A stretch of 40,020 nt of DNA from a virus: the IMG/VR virus record IMGVR_UViG_3300047169_000054, positions 1-40,020 of that record, one strand, 5' to 3'. The first letter of the stretch is position 1. Every line of letters starts with the position of its first letter. Below, in pieces: positions 607 through 39,945 of this stretch. Under the pieces are notes generated by a model, which worked only from the letters and a program-made list of their open reading frames with translations, searched no databases and was not told where the DNA came from. Position numbers and translations under genes: made by a program.

Positions 607-1357
607 TTAAGGCTCAAGCGCGATGAGGGTGGTGCCCGTGAGCGTGGTCAAAAGAGTCACGGGCAGGCTGATGGAAGACGGGCAGGTCGATATGCCGGTG
701 CCGTCTGTGCCGTAACGGATGCTGTTTTTGTTCATCGCGAGAAGTCCGTTGGTGGAGGCGCCATCGGTGATCATGAGGGCGGCGGTGCCTCCGCTCTGCA
801 CATGCCCCACCCAATATTGCGTGCCGGCCGTAAGCGTGTATTGCGTGGCGGAGGCGGATTGCGCGCCCGTGCCATTGACCGCGGTGTTCGCCGACCAGAG
901 CAGGGAAGAGCCGGCGGCGTTCCAGATGCAAAAGTACATCGTCGAAGTGGTGCCGGCGCTGCTGACGCTGACGGTGGCGTGGCCCACAGGAAACGACTGC
1001 GGCGCCGTGAACTGGCGAACGTAAAGCACGCCATTCGCCGGCGTGGCCGTGGCGGTGGTAGTAGGCGAACTCGATGGGCGCGCCGGTGGTGTAAAACCCG
1101 CCCACGCCCACGGTGGAGCTGGAAACGGGCAGATCGGCCGCCACCAGCGCGCGGAAGCTGTGCGCGGCGGCGCTGCCGGAGGTGGGCCCGCCATCGAAGG
1201 TGTTGGCCGCCGCGGTGGCCGAGCCGGTGCCTCCGTTGGCCACGGGAAGCACGTTGATCACCTGCGTGGTCAGGTCCACCTGCGTGACGGCCGCCATGGC
1301 CACCACGCAAAGCACCAGGACCAGCAGAGTGAGCGCCGCTGTCTTTCTGGGAATCAT
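607..1357 (-). CDS. exported tail-fibre-like protein, reading frame disrupted
   Basis: Starts with a clear Sec signal peptide (MIPRKTAALTLLVLVLCVVAMA). This is followed by the phage-fibre motif LPVANGGTGSATAAANTF and then SFRALVAADLPVSSST, which is common in phage tail fibres. The first frame is convincing to about base 1065 (GAPIEFAYY). The second frame continues with TATATPANGVLYVRQFTAPQSF to the stop at 607. Joining them needs a +1 shift near 1045-1070, so the gene is frameshifted by mutation or sequence error. No good ribosome site precedes the ATG; only an A-rich stretch is seen. A repeat lies just upstream (1376-1408). The protein may decorate the virion or be secreted. Function is not known. 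Confidence 0.6.
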
Positions 1358-1375
1358 TTTTTGTTTTTTTGTTTT

Positions 1376-1408
1376 GCCGAAAGCCGAAAGCTGATGGCCG
1401 ACAGCTTC
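1376..1408. repeat. AGCT-type degenerate intergenic repeat
   Basis: Minus strand shows AGCTGTCGGCCATCAGCTTTCGGCTTTCGG directly after the stop of the gene ending at 1413. The units are AGCT/CAGC words spaced 6-8 bases apart, like those at 8514-8548, 28383-28412 and 39959-39989. Confidence 0.6.
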
Positions 1409-1412
1409 GTTT

Positions 1413-1675
1413 TTAGTACCAGAGGCAGTTAAGCTTGGCGCCGCTGGCCGGAGCGGTGAGATAGGTGATGGTGGCTCCGGAGATGGTGTAGTCATTGCCT
1501 GCGCCCTGCTGCTGCTGAATGCCGTTGAGGAAGCAGTTCACGTTGCTGGCGGCCGCGGGCGTGGGCGAGAGCGTAAACGTGGTGTTCGAGCCGTTGATGG
1601 ATCCAGAAGGCGCGCGCCGAAGAAGCACAGCGCGAAGGTGATGCCGAGAACGGCCGCGAGAACGATGTCTTTCAT
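1413..1675 (-). CDS. small exported beta-domain protein, reading frame disrupted
   Basis: ATG at 1675 opens a signal-peptide-like segment (MKDIVLAAVLGITFALCFFGA). That frame soon loses sense and stops. A -1 shift near 1600-1625 joins it to PSGSINGSNTTFTLSPTP...NDYTISGATITYLTAPASGAKLNCLWY, ending at 1413. The C-terminal part is a small beta domain of the 'NG..q..g.DYT.sG.tItf..aP' kind, common in phage tail and fibre proteins. It is a paralogue of the C terminus of the tail terminator encoded just upstream. Whether the frame break is natural or an assembly error cannot be told from one sequence. Confidence 0.55.
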
Positions 1676-1704
1676 TGGATGGATGCCCCTTTGTCGAAAT
1701 TGAA

Positions 1705-2358
1705 TTACTGGAAGAGCTGCAAGCTGTCGCCGCTGCCGGGAGCGGTGGCGAAGGTGATGGTGACTCCGGAAACGGTGTAGTCGCCGCCCGCACGCTGCGC
1801 CTGGATTTCTCCATTGCGGGCGAGGATGGCGCTGGCGCTGACCGCCACCGGCGCGGTGAATACGCGGTTTCCGCCGCCGGGCGCGGGCGTGAGTTGATAG
1901 AGCGTCACGCTGCCACCGGGGGCCGGGCCGGGGATGCCGGTTTCGGTATAGAACGCGCGCAGCCGCAGAATGCTGCGGTAGAGATAGCTGGAGTCGCCTT
2001 CTTCATAGCCCGCGTCGAACTCTTCCACCACTGCCACAAACTGAATCTGCGTGCCCTCCGCCATGGTGTCGGCATAGTTGGCGAGCACGGTGCGAACCGC
2101 GGTGGTGATGCCTTGCGCGGTGATCGCGTCGTTGGCGTAAGCGTCGAATTGGATCTCCCCATCGATGAGGGCGCTGACGCCATCCAGGGTTTGCCCCGCC
2201 GGCAGCGTGTTGACCTTGTGCAGCACCAGGAAGGGAACCGGGGGCTGCTTGGGCGCGGCGCTGAAATAAATAGCCGGGCCGCCATCGCCGGCGGTGCCGA
2301 GGAGCGCAGTGACGCTCGAAAGCGACGCCAGGTATTGATAAAGGCCGGGAAGCAGCAT
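1705..2358 (-). CDS. tail terminator (DUF3168-like) with extra C-terminal beta domain
   Basis: Caps the tail tube and joins it to the head in long-tailed phages. Residues 1-142 have the DUF3168 layout: short helical start (LYQYLASLSSVTALLG), PVPFLVLHKVNTLPAGQTLDG, EIQFDAYANDAITAQGI and a closing strand YRSILRLRAFYTETG. Residues about 150-217 are an added domain (NRVFTAPVAV...GDYTVSGVTITFATAPGSGDSLQLFQ). It is related to the downstream gene ending at 1413 and to a widespread phage fibre domain. The total of 217 residues exceeds the usual 120-150 because of this domain. Position just before the tail tube fits. The added domain may be surface exposed at the neck; this is inference. Confidence 0.75.
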   Translation of the reverse strand: MLLPGLYQYLASLSSVTALLGTAGDGGPAIYFSAAPKQPPVPFLVLHKVNTLPAGQTLDGVSALIDGEIQFDAYANDAITAQGITTAVRTVLANYADTMAEGTQIQFVAVVEEFDAGYEEGDSSYLYRSILRLRAFYTETGIPGPAPGGSVTLYQLTPAPGGGNRVFTAPVAVSASAILARNGEIQAQRAGGDYTVSGVTITFATAPGSGDSLQLFQ

Positions 2359-2394
2359 GGCATGGGGTTTTCTAGTTTTATGTTTTCTTGTTTT

Positions 2395-5300
2395 TTACGG
2401 CAGCCACTCGCAATAGCTGCCGGGCTCGATCACGGCGGCATCGGCCACGGCTCCGGTTTCCACATAGAGCGTGACGGTGAAGGGGCTGGAAAGGCCCTTC
2501 ACCAGAAAATCAATTTCAAAGCGGTAGGGCGTGTTGATGGCTCCGGGCGCAGTGGCAGCGGTGACGGCCGTGACGGTGCTGGTGGCCCAGACGGTGTAGG
2601 AGGGCGCGGCGGCCGGAGCGGCGGATCCGTTCCAGATGGCGGCGTTCACCCAGGCGTCAGTGGTGGCGACGCCAGTGCCCATGCCGAAGGTGACGGTGCT
2701 AACGCCGGTCGCCTGCTCCCAGATGCCCACGCAGCGGCCCCGCGCGGTTTGCGCCGAGGGCGTGGCCGGCAGCGCCAGGCCGGTGGTGGTGAAGGTGGTG
2801 GTGCTCACGCTGGTGGCCGTGACCAGCGAGACACCGTTCACGCCATAAAGCACTTCCGTGCCGATGAGCGTGGTGCCGTTGTCGGTCAGCGAGCTGGCGA
2901 TGCCCTGGTTGGCGCTGGAGCTGCCCGACTTGAGAAGCACGTTTTGCGTGACCTGGCTGGGCGCGGTGATGGCGGCGCCGGGCCCGCCGTTGCAAGCCCC
3001 CGCGGACGTTGCGCCGCTGTCGTAAACCACCACGGAGTTGGCCGCGTTCCAGTGGCCTTTGACGGTACAGACGGCCAGGTTGGCCACGCTGGTGAGCGTG
3101 CCAAAGCCGTTGGTATAAGCCGCGTTCCAGGAGATGGTCGAGGTGCTGCCCGAATTGTTGGTCAGCTCGAAGCTGACTTCCTCGTTATCCACGCAGCCGG
3201 TGGGCGCGCCCAGCGTAAGCGTGGCGTTGGTCACACTCTCGCGGTGCATCAGGCCCGCGGTGCAGTCGACGGTGGTCTGGTTCGCGCTCATGGCATCGGG
3301 CACGTTGCCAAAGCCGCCGTTAAAGCTGCCGGCCGCGGCCTTGTACATGCCGTTGCCCAGCACGAAATCGGAGCGCGTGCCTTTGTCGACGTAGACCAAA
3401 TCGCCATTGGCGGTGGGCGGCACGCCGTTCGGAAAGAGCACGTCGTTTGAAGTGCAATTCGCGCCGTTGTACCAGTCCTGGTTGATGCGGGAGAATTGCC
3501 CGCCGATGTGTTGCGAGCCGGTGCAGCGGCCGAGGTTCGAACCGAGAAAGGAATCGAGGCGCAGGCCCACGCCCATGGCAGCCTGCTGGTTGATCGCCGC
3601 CTCGCCGACGTTCATGGCGATGTTTTCATATTTGGGCGAGAGCACCTGCGCGCCGGGGTGGTCGTAGCTGAAAAACCAACCCGTCGCAAAGTCGCGGCAC
3701 TCAGGCTTGAAGTATTGCCCGTTGCCGGGAGCGGCCGGCGAGTTGGGATTGTTCGATTCCCAGATGCAGAATGAAGGCCCCTGCGAGGTTTGATTGATGG
3801 CCTGGCTGCCGCTGAAGGCTCCGCCCTGGAATTGCGGGTTGGAAACGTTATCGAGCATGCGCACGCCATTGCGGCAGCCGGCGCCCTGGGGATTTTCCAC
3901 CCAGAAGATTTGCGCGCTGTCGGCGGCATAGCAGTCGCCATCGGAAAAGTTTTCGGCCTGGGTGTCGCGCAGCGTGAAGTGGTCGCTATTCACACCCACG
4001 GAGCTTCCGCCATCGAGAAAGAAGCCGCCGGGCGATTGACCGATCAGGTCGCCCACGGCCAGGTTGCGCGCGCCGCCGCCTTCGACATTCTTCCAGCGCG
4101 CGGCCCAATCGCGGGAGAACACCACAATTTCGGACGGAGGCTGCGGACCCGTCCAGCCGCGGGCATAGGTAGTGGCGGCGGTGCCGGGAATCACGGTGCC
4201 CAGGGCCTGCGCGCCGGCGTTGCCGCTAGTGCCTTCCCCCGCGCCCAAGAGGTACACATTGTTTTGCGCGATGAGGGCGCCGCCGTTAAAGAAGTAGCGC
4301 CCGGTGGGCACAGGGGTGCCGGTGGTGCCATCGACGGGCGGAAAGTAAATGGAGCAGCCGGGATTCTGCTTGATGGTGTTGGTACTCGGGCAAGCGGCCA
4401 GCGCGCTGGCGAAGGCCGCGGAATTGTCGGTGCCCTCGGCGCCGTTGGTCACGTTGCCGCTGACGGCGTTGGGAATCACATCGGCAATGCCCACGCTGGT
4501 GGTGGAGGTAAACGACGTGATGGTGGAAAGCCACTCCGCCACATAGGGCGGATACATGCCCAGCAGATACGACGGCGCCACAGTGAGGGCGACGGTGGCG
4601 GAGGAGTCGCAAATGTTGAGCGTGGCATGAATGCCGGTCGAGGCGGAGCAGATGCTGGAAGGCTGCAGCATTTCTCCGCCAAACTGATACGTAAAGGTGC
4701 CTTGCGCGCTGGCGCCGCCCCCGGAGAGCGTGCCCGTGGGCACGGCCGTGGGCAGCGCAGTGTAGTAGCCGGGGTTCAGGATCTGCACGCCGGTGAGCGT
4801 GCCATGCGTGGTATCGCCGGCAGTGCCGCTCGATGTAATGAGCGGCGCGGCCACCAGGCCGTTGACGCCGCCGCCGCTCGAAGCGATCGTCGGCAGGCCG
4901 CAGGAGCTGCCGTTGTTGGTGATGGTGATTTTCGAAACGGAAATATTGGGCGAGGTGCCGGTGGTGGCAAGCGTGGCCGTGACGCCGGAGCAGCTATCGC
5001 CACTGATGGTGATGCTGGTCGGGGCCACCGTACACGCGCCCGCGTTAGTGATGTTCGCCCAGGCGACATAGCCGCCGGTGGCGCCGAGGCCACCGACCGT
5101 AACGGTGGCCGTGGGCGTGGTGGAGCAGGTGCCGCCATTGAAGGTGAGCTGCGGCGTGGTATAGCCCGTGCCCGCGCCGGTGATGACGGTGCCGCTCACA
5201 AACGTGGGGTCGATGACATAGACGCGGTAGCCTTGCGTGCCGGTGGGGCTATTGCCGTTCGAGCCTGGCGTGGGCGCGGCGGCCGTGGTGACTTTCTGGT

Positions 5301-5809
5301 TGGCGGTGACGGTGATGCAGCTTTCCGGGCTGGGCAGCGATTCTCCGTTGAGAATGGTGCCATTGTCGTAAGTGATGGTTTCGACAAAGCAGAGAAAGTT
5401 CGCAAGCTGGGAGCCGCCGCTGGCCGCGGTGAGTGCGGGCATGGCCGCGGGCGCCACCAGAAATGGCGAGATATTTATTGACGCTGCCGGTGCAGCCAGT
5501 GCCGCCGGTGCAATCGCCGGCGGCAAACTTGGTGGTGGAGCTGCCGGCCACGGTGATGGTGGTGGGGCTGCCGCTCGCGCCCATGCTGGCGAAGGCCTGG
5601 GCATCGCCACGGCCGCCATAGGCGACGATATCGAGCCAGGGATCCGGACCGGTGTGATAGAAGTCGCCCGGCGGCGTGATGAAGGTTCCCCCCAGGCCAC
5701 GAGTGGAGCTGGTGGCGGGCGGCTGCTGCGCCGCGGCCAGCGCGCCCAACGCGAGAACGAGCAGCGAAGACGCAAGTAATTTTCGGATCATATTTAAGAC
5801 ACCACCCAT
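2395..5809 (-). CDS. large exported beta-helix (pectate-lyase-like) protein, reading frame disrupted near 5460
   Basis: ATG at 5809 with AAGGA six bases upstream starts a Sec signal peptide (MIRKLLASSLLVLALGALAAAQ). Next comes DPWLDIVAYGGRGD, the usual opening of pectate-lyase-3 or rhamnogalacturonase-type beta-helices. This frame holds to about 5480 (SVNKYLAIS). The sense then continues in the +1 frame (VAPAAMPALTAASGG) for about 1,020 residues to 2395. The long part contains glycine/serine-rich repeats, a conserved helix-domain segment (GTDNSAAFASALAACP, then YFPPVDG, then ARWKNVEGGGARNLAVGD) and a beta-rich C terminus. Such domains cleave or bind polysaccharide in tailspikes, but no catalytic residues can be assigned. 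A leader on a tailspike-like protein is odd: it may be secreted rather than built into the virion. One indel must be assumed. Confidence 0.65.
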
Positions 5810-5829
5810 GTTTTTTCCTTCCCGCTGCC

Positions 5830-6663
5830 TTAGTTTCCGCTGACTGCCACCGATGCGCCGGTGGCGCTGGCGATCACATAGGCGAGGTTGGTGTTTGAAG
5901 CCTGGTAACAAATGGAGTCGCCGGCGGCGAGCGGATAGCCGGTGGACGTGGTGACGCCGCTGGGCCCCACATAAACGGTGATGGAGTTGGTGGGCAGGGC
6001 CTTCACGCAAAAACCATGCACGGTATTGGTGGCCAGCACCACTGCGGATGCGGTGACCGCCTGCTGGAAGGCGACGACGGAAGAGAAACCAGCGGGCTGG
6101 GTGAGCCAGGGCGTGGTGTTTTGCGTGTTGCCGGGCTGCACCGTCCAGGTTCCGTTTTGCGAGACCGGTTGCGAGCTGGGGAAGTTCTGCACGTTGACGT
6201 TGCTGGAGGTGCCGCCGCCGCCGGCCGCGGGATTATCGGTATAGCCGAAGAGCACCACGGTGACGCTGCCGGTGCCGGTGATGGTGGGCGTGAGGCGCGC
6301 TTGAATGGTGGGCGTGGTGGAGTTGGTGGTGATATACATGCCCGCCGAAGCGCAGGAGCCGATGGTGGCGGCCGCAAGAATTCCTCCCGTGGAAAATGTT
6401 CCGGGGGTGGAGGAGGAATCGAGCGAGAGCGAGCAGGCGCTGACGGTGCCGCTGGGCACGAAGATGACGCGCCAGTAAGTAAGGCCGCTGACGTTGAAGC
6501 CGGCGGTGGAGCTGGAATTGGCGGTGAAGGTCACGCTCAGGCCGAGCTGCCACGGAGTGCCCGGAGTCTGCGAGACCTGCTGCTGGCCATAACCGACCGG
6601 CACCAGGCAGAGCAGGAAAAACAGGAGCAAGCCCAGCAGGGTGATCACGTTTTTATTCTTCAT
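5830..6663 (-). CDS. exported protein of unknown function
   Basis: 277 residues. N terminus MKNKNVITLLGLLLFFLLCLVPVGYG is a textbook signal peptide. The rest is serine/threonine/glycine-rich and strand-forming, with a Gly-rich linker near residue 152 (AAGGGGTSS) and SQPVSQNGTWTVQPG after it. That style is seen in exported or fibre-like phage and soil-bacterial proteins. The intact frame contrasts with its broken neighbours. It lies between the head-closure gene and the large beta-helix gene, which it precedes by 20 bases, so the two are probably co-expressed. Function not recognised. Confidence 0.7.
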   Translation of the reverse strand: MKNKNVITLLGLLLFFLLCLVPVGYGQQQVSQTPGTPWQLGLSVTFTANSSSTAGFNVSGLTYWRVIFVPSGTVSACSLSLDSSSTPGTFSTGGILAAATIGSCASAGMYITTNSTTPTIQARLTPTITGTGSVTVVLFGYTDNPAAGGGGTSSNVNVQNFPSSQPVSQNGTWTVQPGNTQNTTPWLTQPAGFSSVVAFQQAVTASAVVLATNTVHGFCVKALPTNSITVYVGPSGVTTSTGYPLAAGDSICYQASNTNLAYVIASATGASVAVSGN

Positions 6664-6677
6664 AGCGTCCTCGTTCT

Positions 6678-7070
6678 CTAGTTGGAGCCGCCGGCGTTCT
6701 GGCCCATTTCAAAACACAAAATCTTGAGCTGCCACTTCTGCTCGTCGGGATCGTCGATGGTGACGATCTGAAACGTGCGGGTGACGCCGCCGTCGATGTA
6801 CTGGATCTGCATGTTTTCCTGAATGCCCAGGCGGTAGTTGATGACCACCAGGTGCGTAACCTTCTGCGCGATCTGCTGCGGCTTGTCGAGCTCGATGCCG
6901 GCGAGGGCGTAGATGGCCGCCCAGCAACTGAAGGCCGCGGTGTAGCCGGTGCCGCCGGTGCCGTCACTGGCGCGCGCCGCGGGCGAAGCGAAGGTGACCT
7001 GGCGATTCATTTCGCCAGGGCCAGCCATGCGGCCGCCCAAGGGCACGCGCGAACTGAGGCCACGCAGCAT
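6678..7070 (-). CDS. head closure / head-tail adaptor protein (SPP1 gp16-like)
   Basis: Seals the portal-connector channel and links head to tail. The core from residue 15 (MAGPGEMNRQVTFAS) shows the family pattern: N-terminal 'R.tf', a hydrophobic strand SCWAAIYALAGIELDKPQQIAQKVTHLVVINY, then a tip and MQIQYIDGGVTRTFQIVTIDDPDEQKWQLKILCFEMG. Length after that start is 116 residues, normal for the family. ATG at 7028 is therefore more likely than ATG at 7070. It follows the connector gene, with one exported-protein gene inserted between. Confidence 0.75.
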   Translation of the reverse strand: MLRGLSSRVPLGGRMAGPGEMNRQVTFASPAARASDGTGGTGYTAAFSCWAAIYALAGIELDKPQQIAQKVTHLVVINYRLGIQENMQIQYIDGGVTRTFQIVTIDDPDEQKWQLKILCFEMGQNAGGSN

Positions 7071-7119
7071 AAAAGTCAGAAGTTCAAAGTAAAAACAGAT
7101 CCCTCGCGAAAAGCCGCCG

Positions 7120-7554
7120 TCAGTTGGTTTGGAGTACCGCGTATTTGACGGCGACGTTCGAGCAGGTCATGGAAATCGACGTGCCCGAAACCCAGCCGGT
7201 TTGGTACTTCATTTGAATGGCGGCGATGGTGCCCGCGGTCAACGAGTACGCGGTCAGCGAGGTGTCGCTGCGGCCGAGCGCGTCCGGCACGCTGGTGACG
7301 GTGAAGGTGTACGTGCTGCCGCCGCTGTTTTGCACCAGCAACACTTCCCGGCCGGTGGAGACGAAGCTGTTGCCGTTGGTGGTGTCGCAGGCGGTGAAGG
7401 TGAGATTCAACTGGCCGGCGGTGACGGCCACGTTGTTCTGCACCAGCGAAATGGTGGTGAGCGCCGTGGGCGTGGCGAAGGCGGAGGTGACAAACATCAG
7501 CAACGCGGCTGCGAGGCAGGCGATGCGTTTGAAGATCGATGGTTGATTTTTCAT
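7120..7554 (-). CDS. small exported protein of unknown function
   Basis: 144 residues with a good ribosome site (AAGGAG about ten bases before ATG at 7554). N terminus is a signal peptide (MKNQPSIFKRIACLAAALLMFVTSAFA, cleavage likely after AFA). The mature part is beta-rich (ISLVQNNVAVTAGQLNLTFTACDTTNGNSFVSTGREVLLVQNSGG). Here a core of about 115 residues resembles small virion decoration proteins in style (strands plus 'TGREVLLVQN..G'), but I do not recognise a family with certainty. It interrupts the connector and head-closure genes. A Sec leader would send it out of the cytoplasm, which is odd for a head component. Confidence 0.7.
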   Translation of the reverse strand: MKNQPSIFKRIACLAAALLMFVTSAFATPTALTTISLVQNNVAVTAGQLNLTFTACDTTNGNSFVSTGREVLLVQNSGGSTYTFTVTSVPDALGRSDTSLTAYSLTAGTIAAIQMKYQTGWVSGTSISMTCSNVAVKYAVLQTN

Positions 7555-7591: not shown

Positions 7592-7615
7592 GTTCCCGGT
7601 TCTCAGTTCTCGGTT
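7592..7615. repeat. GAACTGAGAACCG-type intergenic repeat
   Basis: Minus strand reads ACCGAGAACTGAGAACCGGG directly over the stop codon of the connector gene. It is the same unit as the longer tandem at 39041-39088. Confidence 0.6.
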
Positions 7616-8507
7616 AGCCCCTGGTGGGCGAAAGATCGGGCACGCGCCAGCGCCAGAGCAGGCGCTGCAGCGCCGGGTTTTGCGAGATCGATCCCTGCAC
7701 GTTGTGATCGCGGTTATAGTAGCCATCCCAGATGAGCAGCCGCATGGCCTGGCGCAGCGCGGCGGGGGCGCTTTTGCCGTCATTGCCATAACCCGCGGTG
7801 AAGTGGATCTGCACGGCGTTCGGGACATAGAGCACGGGTGGCCAGGTCTGCCCAGGATTCGGGAAAATTCGTGGGGGCGCGCTGATGTTGTCGTAGACAA
7901 AATCGCCGGTGTCGGGCGGCGGGCCGTTGTTCGTCCAGGTGATGCCGCCATCGGCGGTGGTGCCGCCCACCGTGACATTCCACGCGGGCTGGGTGGGCCC
8001 GGACATCGATGTGTTGCCATCCTGATTTTCGGCCACGCCCGTGACCGTTTGCACTTTTCCGTTCGAGTCTTCAATCTGGTCGCCGAGGAAATATTCATTG
8101 AGCGGCATCCAGTTGAAAAGCGAAGGGTAGAGCGAATCGATGTTGCCGGTGATGCTGTCGCTATAGGTGATTTTGGTGACGTTCTGCAGCGGCGAGCGCA
8201 GCAGCTTGATCATCTGCGAGTAGTTCCACAGCGTGGTGGAGTAGCGCGGCAGCGAGTAGTAGCTGGGCGGATATGCCATCTGGCTCATCACGGTGTCGAC
8301 GAAATAGGGAAAGGAATCGAGCGCCTGAATGTAGCCCTTGTTTACGATCGAACGGCCGGTGAAGCCCTCCACTTCCTCGCGCGCGCTCTGGATCAGATCC
8401 GCGATGTAGGTGTCATCGTTCGACACCGACAGCTTCAGGAAATTCTTCACGTCCGCGACCAGTAAAGGCTCGGCGGCGGGCGCGACGGCTTCGATGAGGT
8501 AGGCCAT
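7614..8507 (-). CDS. head-tail connector protein (gp6-like)
   Basis: Forms the ring that extends the portal. The N terminus is typical: LLVADVKNFLKLSVSNDDTYIADLIQSAREEVEGFTGRS, the helical connector motif of HK97 gp6 and relatives. The C terminus also fits (HFTAGYGNDGKSAPAALRQAMRLLIWDGYYNRD). At 297 residues it is longer than the usual 100-200. The extra 120 or so residues in the middle (from about 125) contain a beta-rich insertion with GTTADGGITWTNNG. A similar ADGGITW-type segment occurs in the tail tip protein at about 29.65 kb. The insertion probably faces outward. Confidence 0.8.
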   Translation of the reverse strand: MAYLIEAVAPAAEPLLVADVKNFLKLSVSNDDTYIADLIQSAREEVEGFTGRSIVNKGYIQALDSFPYFVDTVMSQMAYPPSYYSLPRYSTTLWNYSQMIKLLRSPLQNVTKITYSDSITGNIDSLYPSLFNWMPLNEYFLGDQIEDSNGKVQTVTGVAENQDGNTSMSGPTQPAWNVTVGGTTADGGITWTNNGPPPDTGDFVYDNISAPPRIFPNPGQTWPPVLYVPNAVQIHFTAGYGNDGKSAPAALRQAMRLLIWDGYYNRDHNVQGSISQNPALQRLLWRWRVPDLSPTRG

Positions 8508-8936: not shown

Positions 8937-9461
8937 TTAGCTGAGCGTGGTGCCGCCGCCATCGGTGTACCAGACGCCGTTGTAGGCGGTGAGCACGATG
9001 CGCGCGCCCACGGTTCCGGGAAAGGTGGCGATGTGCTTGTTGCCATTGATTTTGTTGGCCGGGGTGGTCACGGTGTGAGCGTGGCCGCCGAGGTCGACGA
9101 TTTCAATGGTCAAGCCGTCATTGCCGCCGGCCGAAGGAGCGCCGGCGACAGGGGCGGCCAGGGTGCAGGCATCCACCCCGGCGGTGTTGATGAGGCTCTT
9201 TCCGCTGACGGGCACGACCGAAGACGAGGTAATGGCCGGAAGCGCGCTGAGCGAGCCGCCGCCGCCCTGAATTACGTCCGTGGTGCCGGTGAGAACTTCA
9301 AACTGTGCGCGCAGGTTTTCCGCCTGCGCCACGATGGTGTCCTGGTCCGGCGAGCTCGCGGGAATCAGGGGTTGCGGCGAGGCTGCGGTAATTTGGGTCA
9401 TGAACTTGGTCGAGCCCCAAACCATCAGCAGCATGAATTGATTAACCAATCGGGTGATCAT
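8937..9461 (-). CDS. probable head decoration or fibre protein
   Basis: 174 residues, preceded by AGGAG eight bases before ATG. The middle is proline/serine-rich (ITAASPQPLIPASSPDQD). The C terminus has LTIEIVDLGGHAHTVTTPANKINGNKHIATF and ARIVLTAYNGVWYT. This motif (h.vTtpankINGskhia.f...G..i.l.AyNG.W) recurs in small phage structural proteins encoded right after the capsid. That and its place support a capsid-surface role. The N-terminal 20 residues are hydrophobic (FMLLMVWG) but not a classic leader; a start at ATG 9401 would remove them. Confidence 0.6.
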   Translation of the reverse strand: MITRLVNQFMLLMVWGSTKFMTQITAASPQPLIPASSPDQDTIVAQAENLRAQFEVLTGTTDVIQGGGGSLSALPAITSSSVVPVSGKSLINTAGVDACTLAAPVAGAPSAGGNDGLTIEIVDLGGHAHTVTTPANKINGNKHIATFPGTVGARIVLTAYNGVWYTDGGGTTLS

Positions 9462-12293: not shown

Positions 12294-14119
12294 GCTTCCA
12301 CCTCGGTTTCTTGTTTGGCCGCGGCTGTGGCGGCGTTGCGATAAGCTTCCACGGCGAGCGCCCTGATGGCGCGCACCAGCTCGCGCTCGGCGATGGCATC
12401 GGAATTGCCGTTGGCCGTGGCCCACGATTCGTTCTGCGAGCGGTGCTGCATGGTTTCCAGGTAGCTGGCGAGGAAGCGCGAGCCTTCGATTCCGTCAGGA
12501 GCCGGGGCGGCTTGAAAACGCGCGGTCGCGTGGTGCTCGAGCTCCTCGCCAATGCTGACCAGGACCGGCAGGAAAACCTGCCGGAAGGCCTTCAAATCGG
12601 TTGCCGATCGCGCGCAAATGCGGCCGAAAGCGTCGCGAAACAGCCGGCAATAAGACCGCGAAAGCCGCGCGACCACCAGATCATCGCGCTTTCCTTTTGG
12701 GCTGGGATGGGCGGCTGGATCTTGGGATTGAGGATCTTGGGATTGAGGATCCGCGGCATCGTCGTCTTCGCGGCCGGCGCCGGGCAGCGCGGGCGTTTCA
12801 TAAAGCTGCTGGGTGGGCGCCATGTTGATTTGCATCCAGGTCGCATCCGAAGCGGCGCCTGGAAGCGGATTGTCGTTGAGCCGGGCGCGGGCGTCGTTGG
12901 GCTGCCAAACGCCCCACTGCACCATGGCCTGGATGAAGGCGCGCAGGTCCGCTGCGGCGGGGGTGACCAGCGGCCAGGTATCGAAAAACACGCCAAAGTT
13001 CTTGCGGGCGCTGCGCCCTGCGGCCGGGCGCGGGAAGAGCTTGCGCTTGATTTCGTGCTCCCAGCATTTCAGGTCAGGCGAGAGCGAAAAGGTCAAAAAC
13101 TCCTGGCCGATCTGCTCCACATTCGCACGGCTGGTTTTTTCCGTGACTCCCACCATGTGCGGCGGCACGTTGCCCATGACGCGGCAGATCTCGGTAATCT
13201 GGAACATGCGCGTCTCAAGGAACTGGCCTTCGTTCGGTTTGGTCGACGTCGACGTGTACTTCATGCCGGCATCGAGCAGCAGCGGGCGGTTGACGTTTTC
13301 CCCGCCCCAGGCCTCGTTCAACTCCTGGCGCCACTTCGTGAGATCTTCCGGCGCGAGTGTGCCGGGGAATTCAAAAATTCCATAGCCCACGGCACCGTTG
13401 CCGAAAAACTTGCCGCCAAACTTTTCGGTAGCCAGCGCCAGACCGAAGGCGTTGCGCGCGAGTTGCACCACGTCCTGCCCGAGACGGCCATCGAGCGCCA
13501 GTCCCGGCATGTGCAGCATGTCGGCCGGCAGAATGCCGCGCTCGGTGGCGCGGCCTTCGTTCATGGCCTCTTCCACATCGACCGGGGCCATCGCCTCCGC
13601 GCCTTCGGTGGTGGCGTAGAACATATCGCCGGGGCGCACCAGCTCGCCGCGGATGGTCATGGCTTCCGAAGCGCGGCGCACGTGCATGCGCGCCGGATTG
13701 CGCGGCCACAATGCGATCACGCGGTCTGCGTTGTCACGCTGGATTTCGATATAGCCGTTGCCCCACAGCATGCGGTGCGCCTGCACCGTTTTGCGCATGG
13801 TGAAGCTGGACATCTCATCATTCGGCTCGTCGCAGAGGAGATCCCAAAGATCGGATTCATGCGCGATGCGCCGGTTTACGCGGCCGTCTTTCTCGTTGAT
13901 GACCTTTTCGAAGATCTTCAGATCGAGCGTGGCGATCGCGCCTGCCTTCAGCTCAACACAGCAGAAGGCGGTGGCCACCTGAAGCGCCGTGAGTTCGGAG
14001 ACGCGGATCCCCGAGTCGGTGCGGCCGCCGTTGAAAATATCCAGCAGCCACTCGGCCGGGAAAGAGAGCGGCGTCTGCGGATTTTCCAGCGACGTTCGGG
14101 TTTCGGAGATGAATCCCAT
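12290..14119 (-). CDS. portal protein (HK97 family)
   Basis: 609 residues. It forms the dodecameric gate through which terminase packs DNA. Landmarks are ALQVATAFCCVELKAGAIATL, the wing and stem segments (WGNGYIEIQRDNADRVIALWPRNP; DMLHMPGLALDG), PNEGQFLETRMFQITEICRVMGNVPPHMVG and FSLSPDLKCWEHEIKRKLFP. About 190 extra C-terminal residues follow, starting with PALPGAGREDDDAADPQSQDPQSQDP. The QSQDP doublet is encoded by a 15-bp repeat (12718-12747). The helical tail (LFRDAFGRICARSATDLKAFRQVF) resembles the C-terminal region of long portals. The start is coupled to the small membrane protein upstream (shared base 14119). Confidence 0.92.
   Translation of the reverse strand: MGFISETRTSLENPQTPLSFPAEWLLDIFNGGRTDSGIRVSELTALQVATAFCCVELKAGAIATLDLKIFEKVINEKDGRVNRRIAHESDLWDLLCDEPNDEMSSFTMRKTVQAHRMLWGNGYIEIQRDNADRVIALWPRNPARMHVRRASEAMTIRGELVRPGDMFYATTEGAEAMAPVDVEEAMNEGRATERGILPADMLHMPGLALDGRLGQDVVQLARNAFGLALATEKFGGKFFGNGAVGYGIFEFPGTLAPEDLTKWRQELNEAWGGENVNRPLLLDAGMKYTSTSTKPNEGQFLETRMFQITEICRVMGNVPPHMVGVTEKTSRANVEQIGQEFLTFSLSPDLKCWEHEIKRKLFPRPAAGRSARKNFGVFFDTWPLVTPAAADLRAFIQAMVQWGVWQPNDARARLNDNPLPGAASDATWMQINMAPTQQLYETPALPGAGREDDDAADPQSQDPQSQDPAAHPSPKGKRDDLVVARLSRSYCRLFRDAFGRICARSATDLKAFRQVFLPVLVSIGEELEHHATARFQAAPAPDGIEGSRFLASYLETMQHRSQNESWATANGNSDAIAERELVRAIRALAVEAYRNAATAAAKQETEVEA
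12718..12747. repeat. 15-bp tandem duplication inside the portal gene
   Basis: GATCTTGGGATTGAG is present twice in tandem, adding QSQDP to the portal's low-complexity tail in frame. The unit resembles ATCC/CAATCCC-type intergenic repeats. Confidence 0.8.
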
Positions 14120-17228: not shown

Positions 17229-17441
17229 CTAACTTTCTTTCTGGGGAAAGAGTTCAAAAATGTCGACGTCCTCGCTGATCACGATGCAGTCGAGCTGCTT
17301 TCCTCGGAGATAGTGCTCGATCCTTTCAGCATCTTCCGGCGTTAGCCGCCGCCGAATGCGGAGAATATAACGACAACCGGGGCGAATCTCGATGGCTTCC
17401 GCACCTTTGGGAAGCAATGGAGCTAGTTGGGCGATTTTCAC
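17229..17441 (-). CDS. small phage protein of unknown function
   Basis: 70 residues with GTG start overlapping the integrase stop (GTGA), so translation is coupled to it. Sequence KGAEAIEIRPGCRYILRIRRRLTPEDAERIEHYLRGKQLDCIVISEDVDIFEL reads as a compact alpha/beta fold. Similar small proteins occur in phage early regions, but I know no function. Coupling to integrase makes an excision or directionality role possible; this is speculation. Confidence 0.7.
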   Translation of the reverse strand: MKIAQLAPLLPKGAEAIEIRPGCRYILRIRRRLTPEDAERIEHYLRGKQLDCIVISEDVDIFELFPQKES

Positions 17442-18190
17442 TTGAACAATTCTCCGATCGTGCGCTCCACCGTGGCCGCGGTTTCGTCGCCATCAGCCTT
17501 GGTGTAGTGATCGGCGGTCTTCATCGACTTCCAGCCGATCCACTCACAAACTTCGTTGAGCGGAACGCCGTGGCGCACCAGGTGTTTTGCGATCGAGTGC
17601 TTCAGCTTGTGGGGCGAACGCTTGACTTCGCGGATCCCGGCCGCTGCGGCGTATTCCCTGAAAATCTGGAAATAGCGCACCCTAGTGATGGGGAAAAGCC
17701 GGTCATCTGGACCGGGTTCGCGGCTAAGCTGTTGAAATTTAACATTCTGGCTAGACTGTAAAGTTTTCGCGCGCCGCTTCGCCGTGGCGGCGGTTGCGCC
17801 GCCTTTTAAGCCGTGCTGGCCCATTTCCGCCAGCCAGCGCCGCACCCAGGTCAGTTCGTCGAGCAGCGGGTTCTCATGGCCCAGCAAAGGCTGGTCTACA
17901 GCTTCGCTGCCCTTGCCGCGGGCGATCGTCAGCCGTTCGCCGTCCAGATCGCGGCGCCGGATGTTCAGCGCTTCACTCGGCCGCAGTCCGTGCCGGTAAG
18001 TGAGCAGCATTAACACGCCATCGCGCGTGCGCCTGGCAAACGCCAGTTGGAGCACTTGCAGCAGTTCCTGCTCGCTCAGCGCCACCGGAGGCCGCTTGCT
18101 GGCCGGCGCTTTCTTCTTCTTCTGTTTCTGGGGTGGAGACTGGCGCGCCAGCTCGATCAGGCGCCGCAGCTCATCGTCGCTCAGCTCCAT
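17438..18190 (-). CDS. int: tyrosine recombinase / integrase, short form with Lys in place of second Arg
   Basis: Would integrate and excise the phage genome. Catalytic residues seen: R70 (TYRHGLRPSEAL), K93 (ARGKGSE), H194 and K197 (SPHKLKHS), W220 (IGWKS) and Y229 (ADHYTK). The HxxR motif reads HKLK, so the second Arg is Lys. GH is replaced by GW. At 250 residues it has only a short basic lead (PPQKQKKKKAPASKRPP) in place of the normal core-binding domain. A central 30-residue insertion (GGATAATAKRRAKT) interrupts the catalytic domain. Some FimB-like and phage recombinases have HxLKH, so activity is plausible. No repressor or excisionase gene is recognised nearby. Confidence 0.88.
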   Translation of the reverse strand: MELSDDELRRLIELARQSPPQKQKKKKAPASKRPPVALSEQELLQVLQLAFARRTRDGVLMLLTYRHGLRPSEALNIRRRDLDGERLTIARGKGSEAVDQPLLGHENPLLDELTWVRRWLAEMGQHGLKGGATAATAKRRAKTLQSSQNVKFQQLSREPGPDDRLFPITRVRYFQIFREYAAAAGIREVKRSPHKLKHSIAKHLVRHGVPLNEVCEWIGWKSMKTADHYTKADGDETAATVERTIGELFK

Positions 18191-27811: not shown

Positions 27812-28330
27812 CTAAGCAGGGTTGGTGGGCGGGACGGCCGCGCCTGGGGACGCGGCCGGGGGCAGGGAAGATTGTGCGATCGCTGCCAGATATTCTTCGT
27901 ACACGCCGATGACTTTCTGCGCGCGCAGCGGATCCGTCGACCAGCTCTTCGAAACCTCGGTGATGTAAGTCCGCGGATCCTTCGCCGCCAGCGCTGCGGC
28001 GTAGTGAGGCATCACGCTCGACAGCCGTTCGAGCGTCGAAAGGCGATCGCAAAAACAGGCGCGCCAGTCCGGATACTTGACCCAGCTTGCGCCCGGCACC
28101 TGCTTCCACGCGCCGTTTAGAAATTCCTGCGTGGGCAGCGTCATCGTCAAAAAAACCGGGTGCGAGTGCTGCTTCATGCCGAAGAGGTTGTTGCACTCGC
28201 GCGCCAGCGCGCTGTGTCCCCAGGTGGATTCGAGCGCGGCTTCGCACGCCGCCATCTGCGGGAAGGGATGATTCGCCTTCACGGCCTGCGCCGCGGCCGC
28301 ATCAAGGAATTGTTTTTGGAGAGTGTTCAT
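27812..28330 (-). CDS. endolysin, glucosaminidase (GH73/FlgJ-like) type
   Basis: 172 residues. MAACEAALESTWGHSALAREC then NNLFGMK is the core signature of GH73-type glucosaminidase or muramidase. The catalytic Glu is E34 (AALESTWG). It would cut peptidoglycan at the end of infection. There is no signal peptide, consistent with release by the holin-like protein encoded next. The C terminus ends in low-complexity SSLPPAASPGAAVPPT. Confidence 0.85.
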   Translation of the reverse strand: MNTLQKQFLDAAAAQAVKANHPFPQMAACEAALESTWGHSALARECNNLFGMKQHSHPVFLTMTLPTQEFLNGAWKQVPGASWVKYPDWRACFCDRLSTLERLSSVMPHYAAALAAKDPRTYITEVSKSWSTDPLRAQKVIGVYEEYLAAIAQSSLPPAASPGAAVPPTNPA

Positions 28331-39040: not shown

Positions 39041-39088
39041 GTTCTCGGTTCTCAGTTCTCGGTTCTCAGTTCTCGGTTCTCAGTCTCA
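39041..39088. repeat. GAACTGAGAACCGA tandem repeat
   Basis: Minus strand has three copies of a 14-base unit (GAACCGAGAACTGA) right after the chaperone stop codon, close to the next ATG at 39038. Another copy is at 7592-7615. Confidence 0.75.
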
Positions 39089-39945
39089 GCTGCGCTTTAC
39101 CGGCTCGAAGCCGCGCGGGCCTTGGTGAGTGACCTTGCCCGCTTCTTCGATGCCGGCGAACTTTTCTTGCATCTGGGCGCGGAAGCGGGCGGCGGCGGCG
39201 GGATCCACTTCAAACTTTTCCCCGCGCATGACCTTCTCCGCAAACTCGCGCATTTCCTCTTCTTCCTTTTCCGCCTGGCTCTTGGCGCCGGGCATAAAGT
39301 CGGCCGCGCCCAGCGGCGGATGTTTTTCCAGATCGCGATTCACGTTCCAGATATCGCTGCGCACGGCGGCCACCTGCCAGCGCAGAAATTCCTGCTCGTG
39401 CTCGCGGCGCTGGAGCGCCCGCGCGGTTAACAGATCGAGCGCCACCGGCGCCAGGCGCAAAAACTCCGCGTCGCTTAAGCGCAGGTCGACGCGGGCAATG
39501 GCCCAGAGCTCGCCGAGGCTGAGGCTGGGGCGCTGCTGCTCGGATTCGCCGGATCCGGCAGCGGGCTTTCCCCCGCGGTTGATGCTTCCTTCGGTTTCGC
39601 CTTGGGAAAATACGCAGCGAGCGCCTGCGCCACTTGCAGGCAGAGCGGCGTGGCGTTCGAGAAGTCGATGAGCCGCTCCAGATGCGCCTGGGGAAAGGGC
39701 GGCGCCCAGCGTTCGCTCGCGTGATCGTAGACGTGGAGCCCGGCCCACAGGCAGGCCACAAAGCGCGCGGGATCCTCCGTGGGCACAATCTTTTGCCAGC
39801 ATGCGCCGTCGAAGAGGTTATCGCCGGTCAGGCTTTTGTAGAGGATGACCGCGTGGATGGAAAACTCCAGCGGATAGGACTGGCCGCCGAGCGAGACCAG
39901 CACGGGCGGCCGCCCGGTGAGTTCTTGTTCTAAAACGGAGTCCAT
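39086..39945 (-). CDS. tail assembly chaperone GT, made by -1 ribosomal frameshift
   Basis: The upstream frame (39945 on) and the following frame (to 39086) overlap by about 190 bases and differ by exactly -1. This is as in lambda G and GT. The second frame carries LGELWAIARVDLRLSDAEFLRLAPVALDLLTARALQRREHEQEF and DIWNVNRDLEKHPPLG, a typical T part. It has no start and no ribosome site of its own near its conserved region. The fused product would be about 285 residues (lambda GT is about 280). No perfect X-XXY-YYZ heptamer lies in register. The best slip points are the GGGGGAAAG run (39574-39566) and TATTTTCCC (39612-39604). GT would hold the tape measure during tail assembly. Confidence 0.7.
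39475..39945 (-). CDS. tail assembly chaperone G
   Basis: 156 residues, AAGGA before ATG. VLVSLGGQSYPLEFSIHAVI then LYKSLTGDNLFDGACWQKIV reads as the beta/alpha start of G-type chaperones, then LWAGLHVYDHASERWAPPF and HLERLIDFSNATPLCLQVAQ. The C terminus is low-complexity (SAPASASASSGPLPASTCA) where it overlaps the T frame, as expected of a shift zone. Directly follows the tail tube end. Confidence 0.8.
   Translation of the reverse strand: MDSVLEQELTGRPPVLVSLGGQSYPLEFSIHAVILYKSLTGDNLFDGACWQKIVPTEDPARFVACLWAGLHVYDHASERWAPPFPQAHLERLIDFSNATPLCLQVAQALAAYFPKAKPKEASTAGESPLPDPANPSSSAPASASASSGPLPASTCA

Follow-up and report, generated by a model that had tools for sequence, protein, structure and literature searches.

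The five genes described here lie in the head-tail block of a virus record from IMG/VR. This single record of 40,020 bases was analysed in its full length and is called the window below. The frame of the tail tube gene exits at position 1 and its C-terminus (VGNITAVWS) is found at the opposite end of the record, which makes the map circular and nearly complete. Genes for portal, terminase, tape measure, distal tail and central fibre are markers of a siphophage, and a tyrosine integrase (17438-18190) indicates that the phage is temperate. Between tube and tape measure, two overlapping frames (39086-39945) resemble tail assembly chaperones produced by programmed frameshifting.

All genes of the block are encoded on the minus strand. 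Its upstream border is an Ad1-type head-tail connector (7614-8507; PF05135, 3.6e-8; phrog_442, 3.3e-16), which is followed by SP1 (7120-7554), the head closure protein Hc1 (6678-7070; PF05521, 5.1e-12; phrog_25), SP2 (5830-6663), SP3 (2395-5809), a tail completion/terminator protein (1705-2358; PF11367, 7.7e-9), SP4 (1413-1675), SP5 (607-1357) and the tail tube (2-559; phrog_158). Head closure and terminator are devoid of a leader, and the terminator carries an extra fibre-type domain at its C-terminus. These family matches bear out the initial annotation, which had placed five genes with Sec-like leaders among connector, closure, terminator and tube genes. Two further hydrophobic leaders in the block had been missed, one on the tail tube and the other on the post-capsid protein, as we call the product of the gene (8937-9461) that immediately follows the one for the major capsid protein.

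SP1 and SP2 are each encoded in one open frame. SP1 (144 aa) consists of a 27-aa Sec leader with its predicted cut, MKNQPSIFKRIACLAAALLMFVTSAFA^TPT, and a small beta-sandwich with one cysteine pair, while SP2 (277 aa) has the Sec leader MKNKNVITLLGLLLFFLLCLVPVGYG^QQQ and 4 mature cysteines. The SP3 leader, MIRKLLASSLLVLALGALAAAQ, starts at ATG 5791 or possibly at an in-frame start at 5809, and is followed in another frame by a cysteine-rich body of 1,000 aa (22 Cys). SP4 has a weak leader (ATG 1675), MKDIVLAAVLGITFALCFFGARLL, from which a good cleavage site is absent, and a fibre-type domain of ca. 64 aa in another frame. In SP5, the Sec leader MIPRKTAALTLLVLVLCVVAMA^A precedes a fibre-like first half, and the second half is in another frame. 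According to a home-made rule, a charged n-region, a hydrophobic core and small residues at -3/-1 are found in SP1, SP2, SP3, SP5 and most relatives, and the SP4 leader fails. Thus, leaders occur at all five places as initially annotated, but only SP1 and SP2 are single frames and the leader of SP4 is weak.

While leader and mature part share one frame in SP1, SP2 and the relatives, this is not the case for SP3, SP4 and SP5 of this record. Frame switches are confined to signal-peptide genes and are located near 5460 (SP3), 1640 (SP4) and 1040 (SP5) in the window and near 14030 in the related locus L003. No breaks occur in the capsid, portal, connector, closure and terminator genes, and frame switches are therefore concentrated in the accessory genes. 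A programmed frameshift that links leaders to bodies was considered and rejected, since the directions differ between the three broken genes (+1, -1 and +1) and no common slippery site could be seen by eye. Gene decay, assembly error or another cause may lie behind the switches; relatives of SP3 and SP5, by which the switches might be judged, were not found in the sequence collection. The SP genes abut or overlap virion genes, and promoter-like sites are no more frequent than by chance (3 found, 2.9 expected); both points argue that they are expressed late, together with the virion genes.

Relatives were gathered by scans with the connector, SP1, SP2, tube and post-capsid proteins, and signal peptides were called throughout by a single home-made heuristic n-h-c rule. 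The counts cover about 25 different contigs from this group; further ones were found later. In 25 related loci, 73 of the 128 genes between Ad1 and tube have a signal peptide, compared to 17 of 280 elsewhere in these loci (Fisher p 3e-29, for loci which are related and hence not independent). Most of the latter 17 are the leaders of post-capsid and tube proteins. As a control, five unrelated annotated phages were scored and gave 2 positives among 47 genes. Contigs with the whole block mostly carry 2-5 signal-peptide proteins.

Relatives of the window connector are present in Acidobacteriota MAGs. A search of annotated phages with the connector returned only weak, partial matches, and neither an isolate nor a proteome of this group was found. 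Relatives of SP1 and SP2 occur together in one prophage with truB- and miaB-type genes at its flanks; it lies at about 473-510 kb on contig C4 (2.05 Mb) of genome G316, which belongs to the same class (Terriglobia, Acidobacteriota) as one connector-bearing MAG. Signal-peptide proteins, for which a search in relatives had been suggested, are found at the same place in about 25 soil-virus contigs and in a Terriglobia prophage. In a related Terriglobia phage region (L091/L092 in G259, contig C24), SP1 also has a signal peptide, and more cysteine-rich signal-peptide proteins are encoded at the tail-fibre end of the module. The signal-peptide block is conserved in this phage group, and several of its members appear to be descended from virion parts.

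In relatives that contain the junction of Ad1 and head closure, SP1 sits between the two; the variability in presence and position between close relatives that is expected of morons is not seen for SP1, while SP3 to SP5 do vary. Leaderless homologues occupy the same map position between connector and head closure, and their M-AQTALTV start corresponds to the predicted cut of the leader form (AFA^TPTALST). Of 33 leader forms, 27 have the cysteine pair, as compared to none of 15 leaderless forms; the six leader forms without an aligned pair include the copy in the Terriglobia prophage. The SP1 tree requires at least 7 changes of the leader, of which only 3 contrasts are well supported, and we consider the association of leader and cysteines to be suggestive rather than proven. 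At L068:9511-10366, two SP1 copies in tandem are both devoid of cysteines, and only one of them has a signal peptide. The predicted structure of SP1 is a small beta sandwich (model pLDDT 71) which matches uncharacterised phage proteins of about 110 residues (BFVD A0A8S5NNP1 and similar; E 3.8e-4, TM 0.51/0.61). Most of the matches listed have 100-120 aa, corresponding approximately to the mature part of SP1. Against the PDB, SP1 gave no match below E 0.03, and a leaderless homologue gave no match among annotated phages.

Even numbers of cysteines in the mature part were found in 57 of 63 signal-peptide proteins (p 8e-12), as compared to 71 of 191 other proteins from the same contigs, and when SP1 is omitted even numbers persist in 36 of 42 (p 1.4e-6), with p values that ignore relatedness. 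Cysteine density is also higher in signal-peptide proteins (2.08 versus 1.13 per 100 aa). An all-against-all comparison of cysteine counts between homologues with and without signal peptide included too many genes cut off at the ends of contigs to serve as a statistic. In another family, the signal-peptide form (L023:7369-7911, L069:5132-5686, L114:8818-9357) has 3 cysteines, and a leaderless phage homologue with ca. 40% identity (L013:11881-12348) has none in the aligned part. Genuine Sec export of block proteins is thus predicted with good support, as classical leaders are kept in relatives, cysteine counts are even and the SP1 pair tracks the leader. Disulfides alone cannot prove export, because they also occur in non-exported virion proteins of phage JBD30 (PMC11445458).

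SP2, SP4 and SP5 have features of fibres. SP2 follows head closure in most relatives, where its length ranges from 261 to 1534 aa; a conserved first part is combined with a variable remainder, as in fibres. One SP2 relic of 45 codons (L004:1588-1722) consists of a signal peptide with almost nothing after it. A structure model of SP2 was too poor for a fold search (pLDDT 42.6). The SP4 body matches the tail fiber family phrog_18673 (2e-6) and is 47% identical over 57 aa to the C-terminal domain of the adjacent terminator; the SP4 body has two cysteines while the terminator domain has none. In L004, a C-terminal domain of 106 residues is common to the terminator and the adjacent exported protein. 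The first half of SP5 weakly matches the tail fiber family phrog_11393 (0.002), and no homologue was found for its second half. The matches to these two PHROG families cover single small domains, which in SP4 and SP5 follow a Sec leader, with the SP4 body in another frame. Homology to proteins in virion positions is thus seen both for SP1, by its leaderless homologues, and in the fibre-type domains of SP4, SP5 and relatives. Such sharing of domains between exported proteins and adjacent leaderless virion proteins speaks for the former being virion appendages.

The initial annotation had also suggested a secreted polysaccharide-degrading module. The data do not support this, as the window proteins matched no catalytic family in Pfam, NCBIfam and PHROGs and a search of the PDB yielded none for SP3. 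The glucosaminidase of the window is a gene of its own (27812-28330), apart from the SP genes. One relative's protein (L023:7915) has a partial PelI match far below the curated cut-off.

The leaders of the tail tube and post-capsid proteins are of a different kind. The tube protein at 2-559, the only one found in the record, exists in the leader form only, as in L022; its leader of ca. 62 hydrophobic residues ends with FGTT and is preceded by a strong Shine-Dalgarno sequence. Relatives have tubes with or without a leader (the latter starting with MTTTAYPG or similar), and two tube genes occur in some of them. Post-capsid proteins have either a leader ending with FGT or similar, or a plain MTQIT start. 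Hydrophobic leaders, often ending with FGT, are found on proteins of one or the other kind at L002:17749-18327, L003:16869-17330, L006:5771-6331 and L022:8043-8645. By parsimony, the post-capsid leader has changed at least 3 times; for the tube leader 5 changes were counted, but two rows were probably mis-scored and the number is nearer 3. Sequence identity is much lower in these leaders (0.39-0.43) than in the mature parts (0.70-0.74), and their hydrophobicity is kept. A spurious choice of start codons was rejected, as the leaders begin at start codons with Shine-Dalgarno sequences and have stayed hydrophobic despite divergence. A gain of cysteine pairs was not seen in tube and post-capsid proteins, and their topology by the positive-inside rule is ambiguous.

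Our tentative interpretation, to which we assign a probability of about 45%, is that temperate siphophages of Acidobacteriota export beta-rich virion-appendage proteins by the Sec pathway from their late head-tail operon, and that these proteins most likely join the particles at or after lysis. In this proposal, the leaders, their position and conservation, the even cysteine counts and the leaderless homologues devoid of the pair are the part that rests on sequence. Cleavage of the signal peptide would regenerate the N-terminus of the leaderless form, and the proteins would then fold and form disulfides outside the cytoplasm. As DNA-filled particles form in the cytoplasm, we propose that exported proteins and particles would meet at cell lysis. 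The proteins might then bind to the outside of the head-tail region, SP1 as a neck decoration and SP2 to SP5 as fibres; these last two steps are the least certain. The suggestion that virion proteins are added after export, already made in the initial annotation, remains a hypothesis that fits best for the SP1 family, given the leaderless homologues at the same place in the map, and for the proteins resembling fibres. Points against the proposal are that binding of SP proteins to the particle is hypothetical, that the link between SP1 leader and cysteines has few independent contrasts, that disulfides are also a property of non-exported virion proteins, that a home-made rule was used to call signal peptides, and that three of the five window genes are broken.

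A close rival, which we consider a real possibility, is that the exported and disulfide-bonded proteins are never on the particle but coat or leave the infected cell, with their virion ancestry being the source of binding domains. They might mask receptors, which would save released phages from loss on debris or sister cells, or they might bind exopolysaccharide. The evidence from export and cysteines applies equally here. SP3 to SP5 turn over fast, with relatives not found, and their breakage in this record suggests that they may be dispensable. In more distant phages from Acidobacteriota MAGs, the post-connector slot contains genes that have the appearance of glycosyltransferases or methyltransferases (L015:10725-14629, L016:11106-11705), and the glycosyltransferase-like genes would resemble surface-modifying cargo. 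However, the position of SP1 is as fixed as that of a core head-tail gene and is held by leaderless homologues, and expression from the late operon would leave little time to protect a cell which is close to lysis.

We consider it unlikely that the leaders remain uncleaved or are skipped, so that the proteins stay in the cytoplasm as virion parts, perhaps with hydrophobic ends that anchor assembly at the inner membrane. The tube and post-capsid proteins have hydrophobic leaders although their place of action must be the cytoplasm, and the SP2 leader is as conserved as the mature part (0.55 versus 0.47), which is unusual for a cleaved leader. But leaders of the SP1-SP2 type show the standard n-h-c structure with AxA-like sites, even cysteine counts are confined to SP proteins, and the differing leaders of tube and post-capsid proteins bring no cysteine pairs.

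Ordinary lysogenic-conversion cargo (morons), acquired from the host bacterium and expressed in the lysogen, would suit a temperate phage with a Terriglobia prophage relative and has a precedent in lambda, where the signal-peptide morons Lom and Bor are encoded near tail genes, but it is very improbable, as the domains match phage fibres instead of secreted host families and promoter-like signals do not exceed chance. At E<=0.001, the SP1 profile matched 6 of 399 genomes and the SP2 profile 2 of 399, the strong match in each case being the G316 prophage and the next-best SP1 match another phage-like contig, in G259. A homologue of SP3 was found neither in relatives, the PDB and annotated phages nor in 299 Terriglobia genomes, where the query was run without a positive control. 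With matches this sparse, host-gene capture is a weak candidate.

By description, Lom and Bor resemble the proteins of the window in being signal-peptide proteins beside structural genes. The window differs in having several of them inside the head-tail operon, with a fixed place for SP1 and leaderless homologues in virion position, and the searches run did not return a Lom or Bor family match. In the textbook view, the assembly of tailed phages is entirely cytoplasmic. Late attachment to finished particles occurs for T4 Soc and Hoc, T4 fibres and P22 tailspikes, all of which are made and attached in the cytoplasm; they would explain how outside parts are added to finished particles, but without export. 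We know of no such decoration protein or fibre that is exported before attachment. Sec-exported and SAR endolysins, which have been reviewed, are lytic-phase phage proteins that use the host Sec system, as the SP proteins are predicted to do; a lytic domain is absent from the latter. No precedent for exported virion-type proteins was found in the literature searched. The premise of the initial annotation that virion proteins should not be exported appears to be broken by these phages.

It is conceivable, although we doubt it, that the virion is built in two compartments, with outer parts being obligately Sec-exported, disulfide-bonded and attached at lysis, while tube and capsid-adjacent proteins would be made as membrane-inserted precursors. 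If virion-type proteins are indeed exported before they are used, the reducing cytoplasm would no longer limit the use of disulfide-stabilised fibres, and lysis would be an assembly step. The usual view that signal-peptide genes within structural operons are cargo would then be wrong for these phages. As one prophage resides in a Terriglobia chromosome that has been sequenced, the question can be put to the test.
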